51,331 nucleotides of DNA, taken from the NCBI GenBank assembly GCA_021604845.1, contig BQJT01000005.1:1-51331 (forward strand). The letters run 5' to 3'. The notes under the pieces were generated by a model that was not told where the DNA came from, made no database searches, and saw only the letters and a list, made by a program, of their open reading frames with translations. This document shows, one piece after another, positions 8,970 through 41,124 of the stretch. Both the position numbers and the translations under genes were made by a program. The DNA is from Cyclobacteriaceae bacterium (GTDB lineage: Bacteria > Bacteroidota > Bacteroidia > Cytophagales > Cyclobacteriaceae). Numbering within the stretch: position 1 is the stretch's first letter; the number at the start of each line of letters is the position of its first letter.

Positions 8970-9188
8970 ATGGTAAAAACAAGATCAAGAGATACCAACG
9001 AACGGGCAAAACAAATACTCGACATTGCTACCGGTGAGGCAGAGGACAAAGAGTCTAAGTCCAAAAAGAACCCCAAAGGCCGTGCCGGTGGATTAAAGGG
9101 AGGCAAAGCGAGGGCCAAAAAATTAACCGCCAATGAACGTAGCGAGATTGCAAGAAAAGCTGCCAAGAAAAGATGGGGTACTAATTAA
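8970..9188 (+). CDS. Small basic protein with GGxKGGKARAKKL motif, function unknown
   Basis: A 72-residue, very lysine/arginine-rich protein. The second half (GRAGGLKGGKARAKKLTANE and then RSEIARKAAKKRW) is a recognisable motif found in short bacterial proteins often auto-annotated as histone H1-like or nucleic-acid binding; no biochemical role is known to me. The frame is open further upstream, but the ATG at 8970 is chosen because conserved-looking sequence begins there and upstream codons run across the transposon end. It is the first gene inside the left end and its stop overlaps that of the convergent ImmA/IrrE gene by 8 bp. A role in binding DNA or RNA is inferred from charge only. Confidence 0.7.
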   Translation: MVKTRSRDTNERAKQILDIATGEAEDKESKSKKNPKGRAGGLKGGKARAKKLTANERSEIARKAAKKRWGTN

Positions 9189-10254
9189 GAGAAATCATTC
9201 CCTTTCTAGGTAGGTTAAACCAATCAATAAAGTCACTTTTTGTTATACCTCCTATTTCTTCTGCAATTTCTTCATAGCTTAACCCTAGTTCGCTTTTATG
9301 ATATTCTATAATCCTATTCATTAAGATTGGGTAATCAATTGATATAGGTGTCTTTTCTTTCTTTCTTTCACCATAACGACTTAGCTCAATAAACAATGTT
9401 TTAGCTTTTGATTCAGCTATAATCTTCAGCTGTTTTGCTCTCATTATCAGGGATGATTTAGAAACCTTCCAGTAAAGCTTTAGATTGGTCAAATTAGAGT
9501 AGGTAAATGGATTAAAGGTGTATTTTGCTGTAACTTCAGGTACAAGAAATGCTCCCGAAAACCAATCAGCTTCTTTCTCAACAGATTTCAAATCTTCAAA
9601 TTTATCATAGAACTCAGGATCACCAGAAAAAGGGATGTGCATAATTAAGTGTCCAATCTCATGAAATATAGTATGAATAATATGGTCATTGGACATGTTG
9701 CAATTTACAACTATCATTGGCATGTTGATGTCTGTGTCAATTGTCATACCGGAGAATTTATCTGAATCCACATCAAAGTATATGATTGGTATTCCAAGTT
9801 TCTCTACTAAGGAAATAGGTTTTTCAATTGGGTTATCATCAAGGTTCAGGAATAACCTAAAGGATTTGGCAATATCTTCGGGGCTGGTATTTTCCGTAAC
9901 TGGAATTTTTGGTAGCTCTCGAAAATAGATATCAACCGAGTCCAAAAATTCGATATACATTTCCCTCATTATGTCAATTTTAGCCTCAAGAGGGACTATC
10001 TTTTTCGCAGGTAGCGCATGGCGCTTTCTATAAAAGAATTTACTTATGCGCGAAGTTGATCCGCTCTTTTTAAAATATGCTACAGGAAATCTTAGGGCAG
10101 ATGCGATTTGAAAAACAACATCATCCTTTAGCTCAACCTTTCCATTCTCGATGAAGTTTAAAGTTGAGTGAGGCAAGTTTATCATTTTAGCCAATTCGGT
10201 CTGGGTAACACCCCTAACGTTCCTTGCCTTGGCAATCCTATGAAAGTGGTACAT
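9181..10254 (-). CDS. XRE-family regulator fused to ImmA/IrrE (COG2856) metallopeptidase
   Basis: A 357-residue two-domain protein. Residues 1-65 are a helix-turn-helix of the XRE type (VTQTELAKMINLPHSTLNFIENGKVEL). Residues about 120-245 are the COG2856 zinc peptidase, with HEIGH (His198, Glu199, His202) and the third-ligand region KEADWFSGAFLVPE. The C-terminal 60 residues hold a second possible helix-turn-helix (LSYEEIAEEIGGITKSDFIDW). ImmA cleaves the repressor of ICEBs1 and IrrE cleaves a repressor in Deinococcus; fused XRE-COG2856 proteins are also predicted antitoxins. It is 13 bp downstream of the 10268-10894 gene and shares its promoter. The fusion of DNA binding and protease suggests a self-contained switch (inference). 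Confidence 0.88.
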   Translation of the reverse strand: MYHFHRIAKARNVRGVTQTELAKMINLPHSTLNFIENGKVELKDDVVFQIASALRFPVAYFKKSGSTSRISKFFYRKRHALPAKKIVPLEAKIDIMREMYIEFLDSVDIYFRELPKIPVTENTSPEDIAKSFRLFLNLDDNPIEKPISLVEKLGIPIIYFDVDSDKFSGMTIDTDINMPMIVVNCNMSNDHIIHTIFHEIGHLIMHIPFSGDPEFYDKFEDLKSVEKEADWFSGAFLVPEVTAKYTFNPFTYSNLTNLKLYWKVSKSSLIMRAKQLKIIAESKAKTLFIELSRYGERKKEKTPISIDYPILMNRIIEYHKSELGLSYEEIAEEIGGITKSDFIDWFNLPRKGMISLN

Positions 10255-19122: not shown

Positions 19123-20469
19123 CTATGTTTTAGGTAATATAATGGTAAAAATTGATCCCGCCTGTCCGGCAGGCAGGCCTTCACCTTTGTTACTTTCAAC
19201 CGTTAGTTGACCCATATGCCCTTTGGTCACAATGTCATAACTTAGGCTTAGTCCCAACCCGGTTCCCTTACCGGCAGGTTTAGTTGTAAAGAAAGGTTGA
19301 AAGATCTTATCTTTTATATCATCCGGAATGCCTGGACCGTTATCTTCTACACTGATCTCGATGTTCTTTGCCCCATTCCTGGTGGTGACCACAACTTCAG
19401 GCTTATCCACATTCCTCACTGCCTGAAAAGCATTATTGATCAGGTTCAATAAAACTCTTCCAATATCTTGAGCAACCACATTTATTTTAGGAAGATCGTC
19501 CGCCAGCACTGTTTTAAAAGTGGCATTGAAAGATTTGTCTTTGGCCCTGAAACCATGATATGCCAGCCGTAGATACTCATCCGCCAATACATTGATATCC
19601 GTAAGTTCTTTATTCCCTGTGCTGGTGCGGGAATGCTGTAACATACTTTTAACAATGGCTTCTGCCCGCTTGCCGTGGTGCATGATCTTATCTTCATTTT
19701 CAAGGATATCCTGAGTGATTGCCAGCACCGACTCCCGGTCCCCTTTTACCTGTGCCTCCTTTAACTCCTCGATCAATTCCTTATTCACCTCTGAGAAATT
19801 GTTAACAAAATTCAGTGGGTTCTGTATCTCATGGGCAATCCCCGCGGTCAATTCACCAAGGGAAGCCATCTTTTCTGAATGGATCAGTTGATTTTGGGTT
19901 TCTTTTAGCTCTAAAAGTGCCTGTTGTAATTCTTCCTTTTGTTTGGTTAGCTCTGAAGTGCGTTGGACTACCTGCACTTCCAAATCTGCCTTCAATTGGG
20001 CCATTATTTTATTCTGCTTTTCTTCTTGAAGTGTCTTTTCTCTTTCTCTTGCCAGCGCTTTGTTTTGCTTATTGGTGATAATGAGCATTACAATCATCCA
20101 TATTACAGAAAACACACCGGCAACATCAAAAACATCTTCCCATTCCTGATAGAACTCGTTGTTTGCCAATATGGTGACTTTGGTCAAAAATGAAACGATG
20201 ATGAAAGGCAAAACAGCCACAAACACTGATCTTCGTTCCCTGAATTCAGGGTTCCAATAGATTAAATAAGCTATGAACAACAACAGCGGGTAGCTTAGCC
20301 AGGTAGTGACCTGATTAATTTCATCCGAGATAATTTCAACTGCCAACAACACCAGGGAAGCGATCATTCCAGCTTTTAGTATTTGGTCCCACCGGGGTAG
20401 GGAGTCTGAACTGCGCAAGGATCTATGCAGGTATCGGAACATAAAAAAAGCCAGTATAAATTCTCCCAT
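19123..20469 (-). CDS. Membrane sensor histidine kinase with palindromic in-frame insert
   Basis: 448 residues. Four hydrophobic segments (about 34-49, 58-71, 82-100, 116-131) anchor it; a coiled coil (about 133-195) leads to the HisKA-like domain with His213 in [19 protein letters not shown] and an ATPase domain with DNGPGIPDDIKDKIF and [14 protein letters not shown]. The kinase core is a close paralogue of that in the 2182-residue neighbour. Seven residues, LPAGQAG (432-438), sit between KGEG and SIFTIILP where the paralogue has none; they are encoded by a GC-rich imperfect palindrome at 19156-19176. The insert is just before the last strand of the ATPase fold and does not break the frame. 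It is second in the four-gene operon, 18 bp after the large kinase. Confidence 0.92.
   Translation of the reverse strand: MGEFILAFFMFRYLHRSLRSSDSLPRWDQILKAGMIASLVLLAVEIISDEINQVTTWLSYPLLLFIAYLIYWNPEFRERRSVFVAVLPFIIVSFLTKVTILANNEFYQEWEDVFDVAGVFSVIWMIVMLIITNKQNKALAREREKTLQEEKQNKIMAQLKADLEVQVVQRTSELTKQKEELQQALLELKETQNQLIHSEKMASLGELTAGIAHEIQNPLNFVNNFSEVNKELIEELKEAQVKGDRESVLAITQDILENEDKIMHHGKRAEAIVKSMLQHSRTSTGNKELTDINVLADEYLRLAYHGFRAKDKSFNATFKTVLADDLPKINVVAQDIGRVLLNLINNAFQAVRNVDKPEVVVTTRNGAKNIEISVEDNGPGIPDDIKDKIFQPFFTTKPAGKGTGLGLSLSYDIVTKGHMGQLTVESNKGEGLPAGQAGSIFTIILPKT
19156..19176 (-). repeat. 21-bp palindromic repeat inserted in a kinase gene
   Basis: The seven codons for LPAGQAG form an imperfect palindrome on the minus strand (core GCCTGCCGGACAGGC) and are much richer in G+C than the gene around them. 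From memory, repeats of the CCTGCCTGCCGGCAGGCAGG type are scattered in many Bacteroidota genomes. The length of 21 bp keeps the frame. Confidence 0.7.
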
Positions 20470-20487: not shown

Positions 20488-23400
20488 TTAGGTCGGAAGG
20501 CAAATTACGAATTCCGTTCCTTTTTCACTTGATTTTACCTCTATGGTACCTCCATGCCCCTTAGTCACAATATCATAGCTCAGGCTCAACCCCAGCCCGG
20601 TTCCCTCGCCGGCGGCTTTGGTGGTAAAGAACGGTTGGAAAATTTTATCCTTGATTTCTTCTGGAATCCCTGGGCCATTATCGATTATACTTACCTCTAT
20701 GCCCTTTTCACCATGCCTGGTAGTAACCACTACTTCCGGATTCGTAACATGCTTTACCGCCTGAAAAGCATTATTGACCAAATTCAATATAACCCTGCCG
20801 ATATCCTGAGAAACAATATCAATCTTAGGAAGATCGTGCACCAGCTCCGTTTTGAAATTTGCATTAAACGATTTGTCCTTAGCTCTGAACCCATGATAAG
20901 CCAGCCGCAAATACTCATCAGCCAGTACATTTATGTCTGTTAATACCTTCTCCTCGGAACTGGCTCTTGAGTGGTCCAGCATACCTTTTACGATGCCACT
21001 GGCTCTTTTACCGTGGTGCGCAATTTTATCTAGGTTCTGTATCAAATCGTTTATGAGTTCAACTACTTCTGCTGGATTCCCGCTTTCTATTTCATCTTTC
21101 ATTTCAATAAGAAGTTCGGTACTCACCTCAGAAAAATTATTGACGAAATTTAGTGGGTTCTGTATCTCATGGGCAATTCCTGCGGTAAGCTCCCCCAGGG
21201 AAGCCATTTTTTCGGAGTGGATCAGTTGGTTTTGAGCGGACTTTAATTCAGATAATGTATTCTCAACACTTTGCTTGGCTTCTTCTAACTGCACGAAATC
21301 CTCGTATCTGGAGTAGGCCACAGAGAAGGCATCGGCTAGTGACTTTACCAGCTCAATCTGATCACCGGACAAAGGTTCGGAGCTCCCTACATATAACATT
21401 CCTTGCTTAAACGGGACCTGGTGCAGGTTTAGGTTTTTAGGAGGTTTTTCTCCCATCTGGTAGGTCTTTAGGTTTTTTATAAGGCCCCTGTTTTTAAGAG
21501 ATTTCGTAAAGTTCCTAAATTGTTGCTGATCCCAGTGCATGCGATGTACGGCCTGCGTTTGCCAATGACTAATCGCCTCATGAACCAACGGTATTTCTTT
21601 TTCATCAAAACCCAGGTGTAAAGCTGCCAGTGGTTCACCTTCGGGAGTAGACAGGTACATATGGACCGTCTCACTAGGTTCATCAATTATAAATACCCCG
21701 CATCGAAAAAATGGCACCCCAAGCGAGGTCAGTTCCCTCCATACCAGAGGCGTGATACGCTGAAGATCATCAGTATATCGCATGGAAGCAATTTCTGCGC
21801 GTACCCTGTCCAGGGAAGATTGTTTGATGGCCTCCTTTTCACGGGCTTCCGCTTTTTTTAAATCCAGATACCGCCCGTAGGTTAAGGTAAAGACATTGGT
21901 AAACTTTTGAAAGATATCGGAGGCTTCCTCGGTAAAATAATCCTCCGTAAATGCGAATAAAGCCCCTTCCTTAAAAAGAAACCCGTTTGAAATGTGTCGA
22001 TCAGGCAGGCCTTTGCCAATTGGAACACTATAGTTTGGCATGTTATTTAAGTCCTGATAATAGCGTTGAGCATCTTTTCCCTTAAGCTCATAAGTAAAAA
22101 TGTCCTTACCGGCTTTCCAATGTTCAAAAAGCTGATTCACCATAGGGTGGAAAGTCATGTCCACAATGCCGGATACATTAAATACCTCACCGCCGGATGA
22201 TGTTGAGGCTGTCCATACTTCCATGGTTTTATTCTCCTTAATAATAGATACGCCACATCTGAAAGTCTCAATACCGAGGTTCTCTAATTCCTGAAAGAGC
22301 ACCATAGTGGCTTTACCTACATCATCGCTTGAATGCATGGCCATGGTACTGGATCGTACACGCTCCAACGCTGCCTCCACGCGCGCTTCACGTGCTTGTA
22401 ATTCTGCCTTTTCCAGGTCAAGAAATCGGCGATAGGCAAGATCAAAGACCTGGGCAGCTCGTAGCTGCATATCGCAAGCCTCATCAGAAGGTGGTTCATC
22501 AGCGATCATCAATAAAGCGCCGCCGGTAAACTTGGAGAAATGATAATACAGAACTTTAGGTACTACGATTTTTCCATTTTTATCATAGTCGATAACCGCT
22601 GGCGCCACACCGTTTTCCAGCACCCGATACCAGTCTTTTAGCATTTTACCTCGGGATTCAATCAGATAGCTGCTCTGGTTGGAATGATAACAGTCCATCA
22701 CTTCCCGGGTCCAGGAACAGGCATCTTTAGGCACCAGCGCCCTATCCATTACCCAACTTGTCTCATCTCCGGTAGAACGGTAGGAATACCAGGCATCAAA
22801 TGTAGGTAAGTCATCCGGATAAATATGAATTATTGATGCTTCCAGTTCTTTCTGGCCCAACTGGGCTAACTGGTCATGCAAAACTTCAGCCACTGAGAAC
22901 AGGTCATTGGAAGAATGCATGGCCATGGCCGCAGCACGTACCCGTTCCAGAGCCGCTTCAATTTGGGCTTCACGGGCTTGCTCTTCTGCTTGTTTGAGGT
23001 CAAGGAAACGAGTATAAGTTTGTTCGAATACCTTTGCAAAGCGTATTCCGATATCTATCTTATCTCTTGAAAGTTTGTCGCCACCAACCAGTAATAGGTA
23101 TCCGTGTTTGAAATTATAGGTCTGCAGGGTTAATCTGAGGGGTGAAAGTGATATCAGCTCTTGAGCTGATAAGTGGAAGTTTATACTATTTTCCGCAATG
23201 TATGTTTGGTGCGCTATGGTCTCCTTTTCATTTAATTCTACCACATGATAGGATTCTTGTTTTTCCCAGCTTGAGGTGAGCGAACGCATGACCTTGGTTT
23301 CATCCCTAGGTATACCCATGGGTTTCTTCATCATGGATTTGCTATCTGTTTCTACAGCTACCATATAGTACCAGTCGATTTTTTCGTCTTTATTCACTAA

Positions 23401-26400
23401 AGTGATTCCACTGGTTACAGATGTTACATCAAGCTTAGAGAGTTCTTGGTACAACAGAGCCCCCACTTCCAGCATTTCCTCACTTTTCTGCATTCCCATT
23501 GTACGCGACCTCACCCGCTCCAACGCAGCTTCAATTTTAGCTTCCCGGGCCTGCGCTTCAGCCTTTTTGATGTCTTCGAAACGGGTATAGGATTGCTTGA
23601 ATACCCGACCAAAACGCTGAAAAATACTTTTACCCTGATCAGACATAGGCCTGGTCCCAGCAGCACAGATCAACCCATATTGATTGCAGGTAGTGGTGGT
23701 GAACATTTTACCGGGTGACTGCATGGAGGATTTAGCTTTTGGGGGAAGATTCTTGAACTCGGATTCCTCAAACAAGTATCGGTCCCAACTCTGTTTCAGC
23801 TTACCTTTTATTTCCAGTTCAAAAAGAGATTCTTTTGACCTCCAGGCTTTAATGAATTTCTTATAATAAGGGTGGGGGGAATTAGGGAAAAAATAGTACT
23901 CAGAACCTTCTGGTACATCAGAGCTAGCGATCCATGCCTGCGCTGATTCTGATTCCTGATCTATTATCCAAATAATACACCTTTCCAATTCTACATCCAA
24001 TGAGGTTAATTCTGTAAATATTTTGCCTAAAACATTAGCTATTTCAGCTGACTCTTGCATGGCCATGGACCTGGATCTTACTCTTTCTAGAGCAGCTTCG
24101 ACCTGTGCCTCACGGGCCTGAGCTTCAGCAATTTTTAGGTCAAGAAAACGTTGGTAGGCCAAATTAAATACTGCAGCAGCCCTTTTTTGCAGATCTTTTG
24201 ACTCCTGCGAGGGTTCCTGATAGGATACCATAACCAAGGCCCCGCCGGTGAAATCACTAAAGTGAAAATATTGCTCTTTGGGTAATTGTTGACGATATGA
24301 TTTTATTTGCTTAGGTGCCACAAATGCCACTTCTTTTTGCCATTCCCTCAGTCTTTTGCCTGAAGCAAAAATGGTGTATTCATTTTGATTTGAATCATGC
24401 TTCTGGATAAACTCTTGCGCCAAGGCCGAGGTATTAATACGGATCTTTGAAATACCCGTTAAAATCTTTCTTTTTCCTTTTCCGGTGGGTACAAAGGCCC
24501 ACCAGGTATCGAAGGTTGGTGCTTCTTTGGTATAAATGTGAACCGCGGATACTGCTAACTCTGGTTGTCCAAGTAAGCCCATCTCTTCCCTCATTACCTC
24601 GGCAACTTCCAGGATTTCATCTGAAGAATGCATGGCCAATGCCCGCGCTCTTACTCTTTCCAGAGCCGCTTCAATCTGAGCTTCCCGGGCTTGCTCTTCT
24701 GCTTTTTTCAGATCTTCAAACCTGCGATAAGCCATATCAAAAACTCCGGCCAATCTTTTAAATACCGACCAGGTTTCTTCACTCAATGGCTCTACTGATG
24801 GCGCCCCCAGGATCCCGTTTGAAAATGCAACACCGTTCACATACAGTCTATGAAGGTCCAAACTTCTAAATTCTTCAGCGAGATGGGGCAACATCGGAGC
24901 AAACCAATCGATAAATTCATTCAGACGTTTCTCGTTACATATCGCCGAAAAATTCTTTTCTCCCGCCCTGTAATACTTATCCCATTCACGATACACCCAA
25001 ATACAATGTTGGTCATGGGTGGTGTGTGTGAGTGTCACTTTTCTTTCTCCCGTCACTAAATCGGAAAATGCCGCCCAAGCATCAAAAGTGCTTTGATCAT
25101 CATCATTTACATGAATGGCGCAGCCAGGTAGCCCTTCAAGCTTCAGCTCATCCAGTTGTTCCCATATCACCAATGCAATCTCCGGCAGTTCCTTACTATG
25201 CTGCATAGCCATGGTACGTGACCTAACCCTTTCCAGAGCCGCTTCGATTTGGGCCTCCCGGGCTTGTTCTTCGGCTTTTTTCAGATCCAGAAAACGGGTA
25301 TAGGTCTGCTCAAAGACTGAAGCAATCCGGGTAAAAATTGAATATGATTCCGGCACCGGCTCAAAAGTAATAAACAGTAGATGACCGTATTTTAAATAAG
25401 CTACATGATCAATTTGAAAGGATGGAAAAGGAATTCCTTTGGCTTTCATTTCCTTCAAAGACTCCCCTACTACGGGTAAAGTACATAAATACTGGTAGTG
25501 CTTCTGACAAGCTCTGCCTTCAAATTGTTTGACATACAGTGATTCTCCCTTTTTCCCTTCCTGATAATACTCAAGAAATATATTTTCCCTTTTCAGCTTA
25601 TAGGTTGGGAACGCAGCTTCATGATTGCTAAACCATTCTGTGGCTGTGTCTGAGTCTTCATCATAAATATGATAGGCACACCCCCAGGTTTCGATGCCCA
25701 AAGACTTTACCTGTTGTGCTAGCAACAAGGAAGCGTCCGCTAATTCATCACTATGCTGCATGGCCATGGTACGTGCCCGGACTCGTTCCAGGGCCAGTTC
25801 AATTTCTGCCTCACGGGTTTGCTCTTCAGCTTTTTTTAGGTCAAGGAATCTTTTATAAGCCAAATCAAAAACCGCTGCGGCCCGCTTTTGAAGAATTTTT
25901 GATTCCTCGGCAGGTTCTGTATACGTTACCATAAGCAAAGACCCACCGGAGAAATCAGAGAAATGATATATATGCTTCTCAGGGAGCACTCCCTTAAAAT
26001 ATTTTATGATCTCTGGGGCCTGTTTGGCCAGTTGTGCTAACCATTCTTTTAGCTTCTTCCCCTTGGCCACAATGGTATATTCTTTAGCCGTAGATCTGAA
26101 TGCCTTTACGCACTCTCTTGCTACTTCAGATTCTTTATAGCTGAATTTTGCTACACCTTGCACTATCTTTCCCTGGTTTTTGCCCGGTGGACGCATGGCG
26201 TACCAGGACTGAAATGCTTCGGAGTCTTCAGGGTATATATGTATAACCGATGCTTCCAGGTCGGGCTGACCCAGCAAACCCATTTGTTCACGGAGTACCA
26301 GTGCCACTTCATAGAGTTCATATGAAGAATGCATGGCTAGGGCTCTGGCTCTTACCCGCTCCAATGCTGCTTCGATTTGAGCCTCCCGGGCTTGTGCTTC

Positions 26401-27036
26401 GGCTTTCTTAAGGTCTTCGAATCGTCGATACGCCTGGTCAAATACTGCCGCAAGTTTCTTGAAAACGGACCAGGTTTCTTCACTCAGGGGTTCTAAAGAG
26501 TGGGCTCCTATAATGCCATTTGAAAAGGCTACCCCACTCGCGTACAACTGACTCAGCTGTTGGTTCCTCAACTCCTTCGCCATTGATGGCAGGTATTGTT
26601 CAACCCAGTCAATAAACTCATTCAGCTGACGCTTATTGCAAACTGCAGTAAAGGAAGAATCTCCCGCATGATAGTGCTGGTACCACACCTTGAACATCCA
26701 AATACAATCCTGCTGGTCAGTGCCCCTTCTGAGCTTCATTTCCTTCTTTCCATTCACCACCTCCGGAAATGCTCCCCAAACGTCAAAGGTCCCGTTCTCA
26801 TCATCGTTTACGTGGATGGCACAACCGGGCAACTCTTTTAACTTTAACCGGTTCAGTTGTTCCCATAGTACCAACGCCACTTCCGATAACTCCTCGCTGG
26901 ATTTCATGGCCATAGTGCGTGCCCGCACTCTTTCCAGGGCCGCTTCAATTGCCAGCTGCCGTTTTAATGCATTATTTTCCGCTTTCAAATCAGGGGTAAT
27001 ACCCCCGGGTTTTTTGGTGAGTTTTTCTTGGTTCAT
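20488..27036 (-). CDS. Giant soluble histidine kinase with ten tandem GAF-like sensor modules
   Basis: 2182 residues, no signal peptide or membrane segment, so cytosolic. Ten modules of 185-194 residues each begin with a signalling helix of the form [14 protein letters not shown]; the ERVRAR hexamer or its variant sits at residues 35, 226, 417, 602, 793, 984, 1173, 1364, 1558 and 1743. The following ~150 residues of each module look GAF-like (strand-rich core, then a helix ending [17 protein letters not shown]). By sequence the modules fall into types in the order A B C A B D E B F G. The C-terminus (about 1931-2182) is a HisKA/ATPase core with His1956 in [29 protein letters not shown] and [14 protein letters not shown]. 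It is first in the operon and probably senses several small molecules; ligands are unknown. The GAF assignment is inference. Confidence 0.9.
21793..26937 (-). repeat. Ten tandem coding repeats (about 555-582 bp each)
   Basis: Repeat units begin, on the minus strand, near 26934, 26361, 25788, 25233, 24660, 24087, 23520, 22947, 22365 and 21810 (positions of the ERVRAR codons). The 70-bp helix linker (coding [14 protein letters not shown]) is nearly identical between several copies at DNA level, which makes this stretch prone to unequal recombination and to assembly collapse. Confidence 0.88.
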
Positions 27037-36552: not shown

Positions 36553-37164
36553 TTAGATAGATATTCCTATAAAGGACATGAAAGCCAGTCCCATAAGGCC
36601 TGTGATCAACATGGTAATTCCTAGACCTTTCAGGCCATCAGGGACATTACTATATTTTAATCTTTCACGAATGGCGGCCAGTGCTATGATTGCCAGAAAC
36701 CAGCCAATACCTGAAGAAAAGCCGTAGACGGTTGATTCAATCAGGTTAAGGTCTTTTTGAACCATGAACAATGAAGATCCCAGGATCGCACAGTTTACAG
36801 CGATTAATGGAAGAAAAATTCCCAACGAACCGTACAGGGCGGGGGATAACTTTTCAATCACCATTTCTACTAACTGTACCATGGCTGCTATAATTGCAAT
36901 GAACATTATAAACTGTAGAAAACTAAGATCAACCGTGGTAAAATCTTCCCCCATCCAACTGAGTGCACCTTCTTTAAGAATGAATTCCTTAATTAAGAAG
37001 TTGGCTGGAACCGTGATGGTTAGTACAAAAATCACAGCCAGGCCAAGCCCAACTGCGGTAGAGACTTTTTTAGACACAGCGAGGTAGGAACACATACCCA
37101 GAAAGTATGCGAAAACCATATTCTCCACAAAAATTGATCTTACTCCCAGGCTAATTAAATCCAT
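36553..37164 (-). CDS. nqrE: Na+-translocating NADH:quinone reductase subunit E
   Basis: 203 residues, six membrane helices, one of the two homologous helix-bundle subunits (with NqrD) that sit in the centre of the Na+ pump. [29 protein letters not shown] carries the conserved half-helix cysteine (Cys25) that helps bind the iron centre between NqrD and NqrE; a second cysteine lies in [14 protein letters not shown]. It is the last gene of the cluster. nqrF, which normally follows and carries the FAD and 2Fe-2S cluster, is not here. Confidence 0.95.
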
Positions 37165-37167
37165 AGT

Positions 37168-37839
37168 TTAATGTTCTACGTACCCTGACTTAGTTCTTTG
37201 TATCCATATGATGATACCCAAAATCATGAATGCACCAATTGGGGTCACCATCAACCCGTTGTTGGGGAAACTTTCAAGGCCAATGGCTTTAAAAACTTCA
37301 AATCCGAATAACGATCCAAACCCGAATAATTCCCTAAAAAAAGCTACCGCAAGTATTATCCAGGCATAGCCAAAGCCACTGCCAAAGCCATCCAGTATGG
37401 AATCCCAGGCTTTATTCCCCATGGCAAAAGCTTCAAGTCGACCCATGATAATACAGTTGGTAATGATAAGCCCTACATATACGGACAATACCTTATACAT
37501 GTCGTAATAATATGCCTTAAGGACTTCGTTAACCAGGGTTACCAGAGAGGCAATAACCGCTAGTTGAACAATGATGCGAACCCGGTTTGGAATCAAATTT
37601 CTCAAAGCCGAAATAATCAGGTTTGAAAAGACAATTACAAAAAGTACTGCAATTGACATTACCAGAGTGGGCTCCATTTTAAGGGTAATGGCGAGGGCAG
37701 AACAGATTCCCAAAACCTGAATGGTAATCGGATTATCATCGTTTAGCGGGTCGGTTACAAACTTCCTTCTTCTTTTAGACAGTAAGTTTTCACTACGTTC
37801 TTTCTTAACTACGGGATGCTCTAATGTTTCAATAGCCAT
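37168..37839 (-). CDS. nqrD: Na+-translocating NADH:quinone reductase subunit D
   Basis: 223 residues with six membrane helices after a charged N-terminal extension of about 30 residues (HPVVKKERSENLLSKRRRK). Conserved cysteines occur at LGICSALAITLK and VGLIITNCIIMGRLEAFA, the paired half-helices shared with NqrE. The sequence DGFGSGFGYAWIILAVAFFR matches the NqrD signature. Gene is 3 bp upstream of nqrE and 12 bp downstream of nqrC, so they are co-transcribed and probably translationally coupled. Confidence 0.95.
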   Translation of the reverse strand: MAIETLEHPVVKKERSENLLSKRRRKFVTDPLNDDNPITIQVLGICSALAITLKMEPTLVMSIAVLFVIVFSNLIISALRNLIPNRVRIIVQLAVIASLVTLVNEVLKAYYYDMYKVLSVYVGLIITNCIIMGRLEAFAMGNKAWDSILDGFGSGFGYAWIILAVAFFRELFGFGSLFGFEVFKAIGLESFPNNGLMVTPIGAFMILGIIIWIQRTKSGYVEH

Positions 37840-37851
37840 ATCTGGTAGTTC

Positions 37852-38580
37852 CTATGATGAAATCTTCTTTAAGTAATTCTGGTAATACTCCAGATAGTTC
37901 AACAACATATTATTCACTCCCCTGGCGGTAATTGTAGCACCTGCCAGCCCATCCACATGATGAGGGTCCAGGGATTCCGGTGAATTGCCTTCACCTTTCA
38001 ACATGTTTACAGATACCAGGGACCCTTCATCGTTATACACTTCTTTTCCCACAAACCTGGATTGTACCTCTGCCTCTGAAATTCTGGCACCTAGCCCCGG
38101 GGTCTCTCCTTTATGGTCGAAAACTGCTCCCTTAATGGTACTTAGATCTTTATCCAGTGCCACATAACCCCAGATTACGTCCCATAGCCCGTTACCATAG
38201 ATTGGTAAGATATAAGCCTCCACATCCGCTCCTGTTCCCTTATAGAGAAATACCGGGTACAATCGCTCCTCCGCAGGTAATTTGTAGTTCTTTTCAATGG
38301 ACACATTTTCAGCCACCAATGGTTTTCCGGAGGCATCTTCGGACACTTCATTTCCGTTAATATCTACTACCAGTGACTCTATTCTTTGATCGTATATAGC
38401 CAATACGTCATCGGTTTTGTTGATCTCCATCACTGCTCCCAAAATACTCTTCTTAGTATCCAGTTCAACCTGAATTTTTTGTCTTGGTCCCAAACCAACA
38501 GATGCCACAGAAAGCAACCCACCCAGTACAATGGTGGTGATAATGGAAAAAACAATTATATACGCGTTAGATTGTCGCAC
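37852..38580 (-). CDS. nqrC: Na+-translocating NADH:quinone reductase subunit C
   Basis: 242 residues: one N-terminal membrane helix (about 7-28) and a periplasmic FMN domain. FMN is attached to a threonine in S/D-G-A-T-x-T; here the site is LAGATITARGV with Thr216, so the first position is Ala rather than Ser. GETPGLGARI is the other conserved block. The start is a GTG at 38580, which overlaps the end of nqrB by 14 bp. FMN attachment needs the ApbE transferase, which is not encoded in this window. Confidence 0.94.
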   Translation of the reverse strand: MRQSNAYIIVFSIITTIVLGGLLSVASVGLGPRQKIQVELDTKKSILGAVMEINKTDDVLAIYDQRIESLVVDINGNEVSEDASGKPLVAENVSIEKNYKLPAEERLYPVFLYKGTGADVEAYILPIYGNGLWDVIWGYVALDKDLSTIKGAVFDHKGETPGLGARISEAEVQSRFVGKEVYNDEGSLVSVNMLKGEGNSPESLDPHHVDGLAGATITARGVNNMLLNYLEYYQNYLKKISS

Positions 38581-39760
38581 GTTTCAATCTCCTTTTTTTG
38601 TTTGCCTGAACCACGTAAAAATCAATTAACGGGGCAAATACATTCATCAGTAAAACTGCCAGCATTATCCCTTCAGGGTATGCAGGGTTAACTACCCGAA
38701 TAATTACCGTGAGCACTCCAATTAAAAACCCATAAATCCACTTTCCTGTTTCAGTGTGTGCTGCGGTTACCGGGTCGGTTGCCATAAAAACTGCCCCGAA
38801 TGCCAATCCTCCAATTACCAGGTGATAATGCGGTGGCATGGCCATGTATGCGTTCAAACCCATTGCATTAAAAAGATAACCCATAAACAAAGCGCCACCA
38901 AATACACTGGCGATTATTTTCCAGCTACCTACTCCGGTTGCAATCAGAATAGCAGCACCCAGTAATACCATCAATGTAGATGTCTCACCTACTGAACCCG
39001 GCATGGCGCCAAAAAACAAATTTTTAAGGTCGTAGAGGCTGGCGTACCAGCTATCACCCAGTGCGCTCACCACGGTATTCGTTCCTGCTACCGAGGTATC
39101 ATATACTACTGCCAGAGCAGTAGCACCTGAATAACCTTCTACCGGGGTAGCGTCGCCCATGTAAGTCCATACATCCCCGGACATCTGTCCAGGATAGGCA
39201 AAGTACAGGAATGCCCTGGCGGTCATGGCAATGTTTAAAACATTCATGCCTGTTCCTCCAAATGCCTCCTTGGCAATCACCACCGCGAAGATTGTACCCA
39301 GTGCTATCTGCCACAACGGAATTGTAGGTGGCAGGATTAGTGGAATTAACATTCCGGTAACTAAAAACCCCTCATTGATAGGGTGTTTGCGTATGACAGC
39401 AAAGATCACTTCCACCACGCCTCCTGCGGTATAGGAAACCAATAACATGGGGATTACCACGTAGCATCCAATAGCAAATTTTTCCAAAAAAGAAGCGACC
39501 TGTCCGGTTGCAATATAGTGCTGATGCCCTACATTCCACATGCCGAACAGCAAACAGGGAATCATGGCGATTACCACTGTCATCATCAACCTTTTTAAGT
39601 CAATAGCATCCCTTACCTGCACTCCCTTGGCACCAGTGGTATGGTCCGGGGTAAACATAAAAGTCTCCAAGGCTTCAAAAAGGTAGTAGAACTTTTCGTA
39701 CTTACCTCCCCTTTGAAACATGGGTCGTTGTTTATCCAGTATGTCTTTAATTGCTTTCAT
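38567..39760 (-). CDS. nqrB: Na+-translocating NADH:quinone reductase subunit B
   Basis: 397 residues, about ten membrane helices. It carries the second covalent FMN at Thr214 in EGYSGATALAVVY, the usual SGAT motif. The region binding riboflavin and quinone, with FGGTGMNVLNIAMTARAFLY, is intact. It forms the Na+ channel path of the pump together with NqrD and NqrE. The start ATG shares one base with the nqrA stop and the 3' end overlaps nqrC, a tight operon. Confidence 0.96.
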   Translation of the reverse strand: MKAIKDILDKQRPMFQRGGKYEKFYYLFEALETFMFTPDHTTGAKGVQVRDAIDLKRLMMTVVIAMIPCLLFGMWNVGHQHYIATGQVASFLEKFAIGCYVVIPMLLVSYTAGGVVEVIFAVIRKHPINEGFLVTGMLIPLILPPTIPLWQIALGTIFAVVIAKEAFGGTGMNVLNIAMTARAFLYFAYPGQMSGDVWTYMGDATPVEGYSGATALAVVYDTSVAGTNTVVSALGDSWYASLYDLKNLFFGAMPGSVGETSTLMVLLGAAILIATGVGSWKIIASVFGGALFMGYLFNAMGLNAYMAMPPHYHLVIGGLAFGAVFMATDPVTAAHTETGKWIYGFLIGVLTVIIRVVNPAYPEGIMLAVLLMNVFAPLIDFYVVQANKKRRLKRATI

Positions 39761-41124
39761 TAACCCTCTAGCATTAAATCGATGCCATCTCTAACTATTG
39801 ATTGTATTGGATGCTTTGAAACATCAACAAACTCACACAATGCCAGATCCTCCTCAATCACCTCATATATGCCTAAGGCCTCCATATCGTCGTAATCTTC
39901 GGCCATTATTGCTTTCAGCAGGTGCGTTGGCAAAATGTCCATAGGGGTAACCCTTTCAAAAACACCTGTTTGAACAAACGCCCGCTCCTCTCCATAGGTA
40001 TTGGTATCAAGGTCGTAGCGTTCATCTCTATTCATAAAGGAAAACAAACCAAACGCCCGGTGAAAACTGAGCTTCTTGGAAGTTGGCAAAATCCAACCAA
40101 TGAATTCGGAGTGATTTCCCTCAGTTAACACAGTTACCAAATGATCATGATAACCCAAATACCCATCTGCTGATATCCTCTCTCCGGTTAATGCATTTCC
40201 GGAAATAATTCGCACGTTATCATTCGACAGGCCATTGTTGATAAATTGATCGATACAGGCACCATCAAAAGTTTTATAATACTGCGGTTCTTTAACCGGA
40301 GGTCCTGCCAAAGCGAAGATTTTGCTGGCATCATAAATCCCTTCCAGAAACAGCTTTCCAATTTGGGTCACACCGTATGGGCTAATTGTCCAGGCGATAT
40401 CACCTTTATTGATCGGATCCAGATGATGGATCTGTACCCCTACATTTCCAGCGGGATGGGGGCCTGAAAACTTGTTGACCTGGACCCCGGTTACCGACCC
40501 AAACAACGGACTTACTTCAGCATCTGAATCAATATTGAGGTGTACTTTACCTGGGGTCAGTCTTCTCAGTATGTCCAGGCCTGTTTGAAAATGTTGTTCT
40601 TCTCCTTTAAGTATAAAATCGAATCCCGGAGCCAATGGATGGGAATCGAAGGTAGAAATAAAAATTGCCTTTGGCTTGTCCGCTGGGTTTGCGATAACCC
40701 CATAGGGGCGCTGAATTATTCTCGGCCATATACCACTGGGCAGCAATTGCTTAAGGATATCTTCCCTGGAGAGGGTGCTTATCGCTGAGATGGTATATTT
40801 ATGAAAATTCTCATACTCAATTCTTTGATCAGGGAGTATTTTAATCTCTAACAGCTTCCTTCTGTCACCTCGCCTTATTTCCACAACCTCACCACTTACT
40901 GGAGCCGTGAACTTAACTTCGGGTCGGATTTTATCAAACATCAGGGGGGAACCTGCTTTGACCGTGTCACCCTCAGCCACAGAAAGCTTCGGCCGTTCTA
41001 TGCCATTGAAATCAGTTGGCTTAAGAGCAAATACATTGGGAGTAATAGAGTCAACAATCCTTTTCTTGGCGACACCTGCTAGATTAATGTTGAACCCTTT
41101 TTTTAGCTTTACAAATTTCGACAT
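39760..41124 (-). CDS. nqrA: Na+-translocating NADH:quinone reductase subunit A
   Basis: 454 residues, cytosolic subunit close to the quinone site. Characteristic sequences: KLKKGFNINLAGVA at the N-terminus, FTAPVSGEVVEIRRGDRRKL (a lipoyl-like hammerhead), GVQVNKFSGPHPAGNVGVQI and GEERAFVQTGVFERVTPMDI. It is the first gene of the nqrABCDE run, with a -7 box about 45 bp upstream. Confidence 0.95.
   Translation of the reverse strand: MSKFVKLKKGFNINLAGVAKKRIVDSITPNVFALKPTDFNGIERPKLSVAEGDTVKAGSPLMFDKIRPEVKFTAPVSGEVVEIRRGDRRKLLEIKILPDQRIEYENFHKYTISAISTLSREDILKQLLPSGIWPRIIQRPYGVIANPADKPKAIFISTFDSHPLAPGFDFILKGEEQHFQTGLDILRRLTPGKVHLNIDSDAEVSPLFGSVTGVQVNKFSGPHPAGNVGVQIHHLDPINKGDIAWTISPYGVTQIGKLFLEGIYDASKIFALAGPPVKEPQYYKTFDGACIDQFINNGLSNDNVRIISGNALTGERISADGYLGYHDHLVTVLTEGNHSEFIGWILPTSKKLSFHRAFGLFSFMNRDERYDLDTNTYGEERAFVQTGVFERVTPMDILPTHLLKAIMAEDYDDMEALGIYEVIEEDLALCEFVDVSKHPIQSIVRDGIDLMLEG

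Follow-up and report, generated by a model that had tools for sequence, protein, structure and literature searches.

The window analyzed here is a stretch of 51,331 nucleotides from a member of the Cyclobacteriaceae (positions 1 to 51,331 of contig BQJT01000005.1, assembly GCA_021604845.1). Our subject is P0001, a gene on its minus strand (20488-27036, with the ATG at 27036) that encodes a ten-module cytosolic sensor histidine kinase of 2182 amino acids (aa). A first-pass annotation of this DNA had described ten modules at a spacing of 185-194 residues, and this was borne out by the positions of ten helices with the motif [ED]RVR. The Leu residues preceding the motif lie at 34, 225, 416, 601, 792, 983, 1172, 1363, 1557, and 1742, which gives helix-to-helix spacings of 191, 191, 185, 191, 191, 189, 191, 194, and 185 residues. 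Since end-to-end alignment of the modules gives pairwise protein identities of 21-60%, and since relatives were found by module profiles in many genomes, the ten-fold repetition is beyond chance. The sequence ERVRAR, said to open each module, is exact in four of the ten helices (residues 35, 226, 417, and 793), whereas the other six deviate from it and read ERVRSR, ERVRAA, or ERVRSS, with DRVRAE in module 10.

Module 1, a signaling helix plus a predicted GAF-fold domain, covers residues 20-210 (26407-26979, on the minus strand like all parts of the gene) and, unlike its counterpart in 53 relatives, is not preceded by a SnoaL_3 domain. It is followed by module 2 (residues 211-401; 25834-26406), whose nearest relatives within P0001 are modules 5 (58%) and 8 (49%), by module 3 (402-586; 25279-25833), and by modules 4 (587-777; 24706-25278) and 5 (778-968; 24133-24705), the pair used for the two-module structure model discussed below; module 4 is 60% identical to module 1. 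The array continues with module 6 (969-1157; 23566-24132), module 7 (1158-1348; 22993-23565), module 8 (1349-1542; 22411-22992), and module 9 (1543-1727; 21856-22410), and ends with module 10, the kinase-proximal cap (1728-1915; 21292-21855). A helical linker and the kinase core make up the remainder (20491-21291). As annotated, there is a single core, with Pfam matches to HisKA (residues 1947-2027) and HATPase_c (2077-2181), and its HEIQNPL box with the phospho-acceptor His at residue 1956 identifies P0001 as a HisKA-type sensor kinase; 46 residues separate this His from the last conserved Arg (1910). The claims that receiver and membrane segments are missing also held, as P0001 has no Response_reg match and hence is not a hybrid histidine kinase, and its highest mean Kyte-Doolittle hydropathy over 19 residues is 0.99, compared to 2.55 in the neighboring kinase P0002.

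Downstream on the same strand, P0001 is tightly packed with three further genes: the first two gaps measure 18 and 9 bases, and the last two genes overlap by 1 base. P0002 (19123-20469) is a second histidine kinase with hydrophobic, probably membrane-spanning segments. Its kinase core is 71% identical to that of P0001, and the first 16 residues from the phospho-acceptor His are the same in both; the kinase cores in the genome that resemble P0001 do so at 71% and 65%. P0003 (18739-19113) is a stand-alone receiver, and P0004 (17699-18739) is a receiver fused to a class III nucleotide cyclase whose catalytic motif we take to be of the kind that produces cyclic adenosine monophosphate (cAMP). The receiver in the genome that is closest to P0003 is that of P0004 (50%), with the next one listed at 37%. 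Within P0002, a palindromic stretch of 20 bases (19157-19176, minus strand) lies where the protein reads LPAGQAG near its C-terminus; because the genome holds only two near copies (with 2 and 3 mismatches), it is not an abundant repeat. The upstream GNAT gene P0006 was considered as a conserved neighbor and rejected, as no match to it was found in 86 loci.

The possibility that the repeat number is an assembly artefact, raised with the original annotation, was excluded by the divergence of the modules and of the repeats, and by a one-contig genome with arrays. DNA identity between P0001 modules is 37-62% with no long near-identical repeats, direct repeats of at least 40 bases are 61-74% identical, and the one-contig genome carries two neighboring arrays, one of 14 modules and the other of at least 13. 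Relatives were collected in a scan of one genome per species, in which the best 80 of 219 confirmed stretches were kept (78 loci; other phyla may hold the module), and in a scan of 59 genomes related to the window genome (its own included), 9 of which hold the module. The set of 87 loci, numbered with the prefix L, contains close relatives, and several locus pairs (among them L089/L146, L075/L126, L076/L135, and L064/L074) share 90-98% of their DNA over 0.8-4 kb. One of the loci found, L095, comes from a record titled Clostridiaceae. Altogether, the 87 loci hold 111 module-bearing open reading frames (ORFs), of which 29 show at least ten modules and 25 more than ten; among complete array ORFs, 25 of 70 have at least ten. 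The module count in relatives, a check proposed at the outset, ranged from 1 to 22. The longest complete array ORF is that of L097 from Algoriphagus lacus (4606 aa, 22 modules), and in L089 from A. limi 21 modules are seen in an ORF that is cut. The expectation that such a number of modules would be rare was therefore not met, and ten is an ordinary number within this family.

Sampling of 395 Bacteroidota genomes gave 34 with the module at E ≤ 1e-8, the window genome included. P0001 is the sole module-bearing gene of that genome (94% complete), and two of four congeners do not have the module, one of these being rated 100% complete. A kinase box was found in 73 of the 82 array ORFs that have their own C-terminus. 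The other nine C-termini are a SpoIIE phosphatase in the array at L105:6850-12555, a nucleotide cyclase in that at L102:6304-11364, and seven fragments or sequences with no recognized end; with ends in a phosphatase or a cyclase as well, the arrays look like an input unit that can be transferred. At the other end, the 53 extensions found at the N-terminus, each of 150-185 residues, are all SnoaL_3 (NTF2-like) domains (e.g., L097:1702-2211), five of which also match the CaMKII association domain. The SnoaL_3 domain may serve as an oligomerizer or as a sensor. Further N-terminal partners are tetratricopeptide repeats in L084 and, as a weak match, 7TMR-DISM in L122.

We then looked at the output genes across this family. 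In 12 of 86 loci, many of them cut by contig ends, a P0003-like receiver lies beside a P0004-like receiver-cyclase on the stretch that carries the array, and further paralogous kinases often accompany them. Among the array genomes of the phylum sample that belong to the class of the window, the receiver-cyclase is present in 11 of 11, and in 8 of these it lies on the same contig within 11 kb of a listed module; it is about 37 and 117 kb away in two others and on another contig in one. Since genome relatedness confounds co-occurrence, this linkage is the better evidence. The receiver-cyclase is also present in 13 genomes of this class that have no array, and the cyclase hub is thus wider than the arrays, which seem to plug into it.

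A regular property of the arrays is the distance between consecutive modules. We measured this junction from an Arg in the last helix of one module (99% conserved) to an Arg in the first helix of the next (100% conserved), and found it to be 24 residues in all 675 adjacent module pairs, including 9 of 9 in P0001. The stretch inside a module from R19 to R183 varies between 152 and 178 residues (standard deviation 3.7), and module lengths occupy all seven classes modulo 7, though unevenly (86 to 147 of 781 modules). A recount with regular expressions gave 24 residues in 621 of 671 junctions, the others being 12 (47 cases), 20 (two), and 75 (one); for the 30 of these 50 exceptions that were inspected, the values of 12 came from false anchors in the same helix, the two of 20 from kinase linkers, and the 75 from a false anchor as well. 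The linker from the last conserved Arg to the phospho-acceptor His measures 39 (one case), 46 (39), 53 (23), or 60 residues (17), so that all 80 are equal modulo 7 (for L099 the profile anchor gives 60, a regular-expression value of 48 having come from a wrong anchor). In 25 cases found by pattern, the SnoaL motif lies 55 residues before the first helix in 24 and 48 in one. A later set of five stretches from four genomes gave a junction of 24 in 69 of 69 and a linker of 46 or 53 in 8 of 8; after leaving out L146, which is close to L089, these counts were 47 of 47 and 6 of 6. The linker class switches 25 times on a tree built from 73 kinase cores; the resolution of this tree is poor, with stars on 9 of its 70 inner branches. 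Sensor-to-DHp (dimerization and histidine phosphotransfer) linkers that step in heptads are a hallmark of the LOV and phytochrome kinase type; PMC6798134 describes them for photoreceptor kinases, where the LOV kinase YF1 shows an inverted response once a residue is added, and PMC9587094 for phytochrome-linked diguanylate cyclases. Because the linkers step as in these systems, we read the array helices as a signaling coiled coil.

What the module is could not be told from known sequence families. None of the ten P0001 modules has a meaningful match in Pfam or NCBIfam, and sequences in the PDB matched the module profile at chance level only (best E 0.044, over 33 helix residues); a known sensor family was therefore rejected at the level of sequence. 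Likewise, in the open-licence literature of PubMed Central (PMC), to the extent that its text was accessible, we found no description of the module or of kinases with such arrays. An AlphaFold2 model of modules 4 and 5, built on an alignment with 60 two-module relatives, had a predicted local distance difference test score (pLDDT) of 90 and a predicted template modeling score (pTM) of 0.82. In this model, the order of elements in each module is helix-helix-three strands-helix-strand-two helices-two strands, and module 4 ends in a helix that runs on into module 5, the two forming one helix of 48 residues (177-224). The top Foldseek matches were the GAF-PHY structure 8w26 (2.3e-11), Cph2 (4bwi), and the tandem-GAF cyclase 1ykd, and PDE6 was also among the structural neighbors found with Foldseek and VIA-align. 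With VIA-align, the model matched the tandem GAF of PDE5A at Z 17.2 over 309 residues (root-mean-square deviation, rmsd, 9.2) and single GAFs at Z 12-13 (rmsd 3.2-3.9). The six-stranded sheet with flanking helices that defines the GAF topology is thus present in the predicted structure of modules 4 and 5. A second model, of module 10 with the kinase (pLDDT 82), has a single helix of 94 residues that leads from the GAF into the DHp helix bearing the phospho-acceptor His; its leading structural matches were a LOV-kinase chimera (8a6x) and 4gcz, which we take to be YF1. On these models, the module is a GAF-fold domain of a sequence family unlisted in Pfam and NCBIfam. The original picture of sensor-type modules on helices that feed one kinase core is supported to this extent.

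The composition of the arrays was then compared across proteins. Both full-length and core-only clustering showed that modules form subfamilies that are common to different proteins and stand in differing order. The closest relative of a module sits in another protein for 763 of 781 modules and in the same protein for 18. Among 446 close pairs from different loci (core identity of at least 55%), the next neighbors were of the same subfamily in 60, and for internal close pairs in 35 of 369 (9.5%), versus 2.5% for random internal pairs; module order is only weakly conserved. One subfamily has a fixed place: its members, to which module 10 of P0001 belongs, are the last module found in their ORF in 42 of 42 cases, and 36 of these 42 ORFs have their own 3' end within the locus. 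The numbers of same-type modules per protein at three clustering thresholds were 17, 43, and 101, with 31, 50, and 108 expected. Avoidance of same-type modules was rejected as proof of many inputs, as the observed number is clearly below expectation only at the tightest clustering; with the shortfall unclear at the two looser ones, our claim is limited to there being no excess.

A comparison of close relatives indicated how such arrays come to differ. L089 (21 modules seen) and L146 (15 modules) share four blocks with 92-95% DNA identity, in which modules 1-3, 9, 11-17, and 19-21 of the former match modules 1-3, 4, 6-12, and 13-15 of the latter. Modules 4-8 and 18 of L089 have no counterpart in L146, and module 10 of L089 and module 5 of L146 occupy the same place with the same length and have no match of at least 85%. 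These two arrays are therefore set apart by one five-module indel, one single-module indel, and one replacement, and the block ends lie in conserved helix DNA at module boundaries. Gaps are seen as well in the alignments of L075/L126, L076/L135, L076/L136, and L064/L074. Neighboring genes that each carry an array occur inside larger clusters of paralogous kinases (e.g., L075, L086, L098, L134, L143/L144, L146, and L147), and such clusters are a likely setting for module exchange. Conservation along the module alignment is uneven, with an entropy of about 0.8-1.7 bits in columns 1-30 and 171-188 and of 3.0-3.7 bits in columns 51-160. The ratio of non-synonymous to synonymous substitution rates (dN/dS) in the cores had a median of 0.095 in the 73 usable of 115 pairs (42 were saturated or undefined), with 2 of 73 above 0.5; pairs were picked at 80-96% identity, which biases this ratio low. 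Substitution patterns in the sequences thus indicate that the module cores are under purifying selection.

Taken together, we consider it somewhat probable (roughly 60%) that P0001 is a soluble dimeric kinase rod in which many GAF-type sensors can act, through an in-register coiled-coil spine, on a single kinase that feeds a cyclic-nucleotide switch. Domain content, family, junction and linker lengths, shuffling, and recurring neighbors were read directly from the sequences, and the GAF fold and the unbroken helices from the models of one module pair and of module 10 with the kinase. In the proposed mechanism, ten GAF-fold domains would be strung along a continuous parallel helical spine in a presumed P0001 dimer, its helices being unbroken as predicted by the models. 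Each GAF would end in a helix that continues as the opening helix of its successor, and the helix that ends GAF 10 would continue as the phospho-acceptor helix of the kinase. Ligand binding by any GAF, if it occurs, would twist or shift the spine, such that up to ten inputs could converge on a single kinase/phosphatase switch. P0001 and its putative partner, the membrane kinase P0002, would then pass phosphate to the adjoining receivers P0003 and P0004, and the output would be a cyclic nucleotide, probably cAMP, made by the cyclase-fused receiver P0004. Of the two options that had been given for this protein, ten inputs or one input through a mechanical chain, our data favor both together: the chain because the helix register is constant at every junction measured, and different inputs because the cores are diverged, are under purifying selection, and are drawn from a shared pool of subfamilies. 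No ligand motif was found in the modules.

Several observations weigh against this reading. No GAF model in Pfam matched any of 81 diverse modules at E 0.01, and hhalign of the module against a GAF alignment gave a probability of 0.3%, in a test that is weak since that alignment holds only 4 sequences. The earlier question of which fold the modules belong to was thus answered by structure prediction for modules 4 and 5 and not by any sequence profile (Pfam, NCBIfam, or the weak hhalign test), and with no sequence-level link to GAF the assignment rests on the predicted fold. The pTM of the module 10-kinase model is 0.51. NKFDE is a motif of cyclic-nucleotide-binding GAFs; a loose version of it occurs in 5 of 781 modules, compared to a mean of 6.3 after shuffling, and cyclic-nucleotide feedback through NKFDE is accordingly not supported. 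As to the output, a strong P0004 match was found in 0 of 23 array genomes outside the class of the window (two had a weak one), and because of this, and of the receiver/cyclase pair being present in just 12 of 86 loci, the cyclase is not a universal output of arrays. As to the linkers, the well supported branches of the kinase-core tree require just 4 changes for every one of the three common classes, and the changes may include swaps of ready-made ends instead of independent indels. Common descent partly accounts for the constancy of the 24-residue junction, but it leaves unexplained why the cores vary freely in length while the junction stayed constant.

A wider version of the kinase rod is one that we hold more tentatively and regard as a little less probable than an even chance. 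It states that Bacteroidota draw the GAF-fold sensors of these kinases from a common deck that recombines, in which whole units would be inserted, deleted, or replaced at the constant-length helix between position-specific end modules. Any order and any number of units (1 to at least 22) would stay in phase, and together they would gate one kinase and, in many cases, one cyclase.

Among the alternatives, the one that survives best, although we think it unlikely, is that the array is a mechanical spacer or scaffold, in which most modules would be GAF folds that bind no ligand, are retained only for length and dimer stability, and relay one input (in relatives perhaps from SnoaL_3). This would fit the failure to find a ligand motif in the modules, the restriction of strong conservation to the helices, the SnoaL_3 domain at the far end of every N-terminal extension tested, and array lengths from 1 to 22 that differ between close relatives; however, P0001 has no SnoaL domain, the module cores are under purifying selection, and arrays contain many subfamilies with no same-type excess instead of one copied module. 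We give even less credence to near-neutral repeat turnover, whereby recombination at conserved helix DNA would expand, contract, and replace modules, with little functional meaning to their number. The wide range of module numbers, the patchy presence even within the genus, and the five-module and one-module indels between close relatives are all as expected from it, but the rarity of nearest relatives within the same protein (18 of 781), the lack of recently copied modules in the window (DNA identity of 62% at most), the fixed terminal type (42 of 42), and the low dN/dS of the cores are not. Finally, shuffled GAF modules could be a dimerization barcode by which each kinase pairs only with itself, which agrees with the frequent location of array kinases in paralogous-kinase clusters, with the similarity of kinase cores (71% and 65% in the window genome), and with the scrambled module order between proteins, yet is improbable here since P0002 has no modules and the single array of the window genome leaves P0001 without an array paralogue to be insulated from.

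The kinase rod that we favor can be compared with known systems. Tandem GAF units (PDE2/5/6 and the cyanobacterial adenylyl cyclase 1ykd), which are among the best structural matches, likewise consist of GAF folds joined by a long helix. They have two GAFs, however, versus ten in P0001 and up to 22 in relatives, and they show no detectable sequence similarity to the array modules, in which NKFDE is not enriched; the output of P0001 is a histidine kinase. Phytochromes, with their GAF-PHY spine, and LOV kinases share with P0001 a helical spine into the DHp domain and, according to PMC6798134 and PMC9587094, linkers in heptad steps; they differ in that arrays have many modules of one unlisted type and a single length at every inter-module junction measured. 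Of PadC linkers, 54% are divisible by seven, 38% are at -4, and a few are at +2 (PMC9587094). The S-helix, as described in PMC1592074, resembles the array helix in its length of about 40 residues between signaling domains, its central ER motif, and its frequent position before kinases, but its signature is ERT, with non-polar residues disfavored at the T, whereas the array consensus is ERV (V in 85% of 781 modules). We therefore rejected membership on this triplet; the array helix may work like an S-helix nonetheless. Multi-GAF cyanobacteriochrome kinases also have several regularly spaced GAFs in a row. They bind bilins and, in the example of All2699, have few GAFs (three), whereas the array modules match no GAF profile. 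P0001 is a variant of the known kind of multi-GAF/PAS kinase, and is made noteworthy by a GAF-fold family that is unlisted, a junction of fixed length, linkers that step in heptads, and modules that are exchanged as wholes.

Elsewhere in the window, a protein with HTH_3 and Peptidase_M78 domains (IrrE-like) is encoded at 9181-10254 on the minus strand, and the genes at 36553-41124, also on the minus strand, have Rnf-Nqr, NQR2/RnfD, and NqrA domains and are probably a locus for a sodium-pumping NADH dehydrogenase.

With no Pfam or NCBIfam entry found for the module, about 1,900 of the 2,182 residues of P0001 have gone without annotation. If the modules can be swapped as units, they would be a natural plug-in kit for biosensors. 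To our knowledge, studies of the reach of a signal within a coiled-coil spine, and of the number of sensors that can act on one kinase, have usually used one or two sensor domains. The hundred-odd array ORFs of this family offer a natural series for testing both, as their module number runs from 1 to 22 while they share one junction length and have linkers that differ by heptads.

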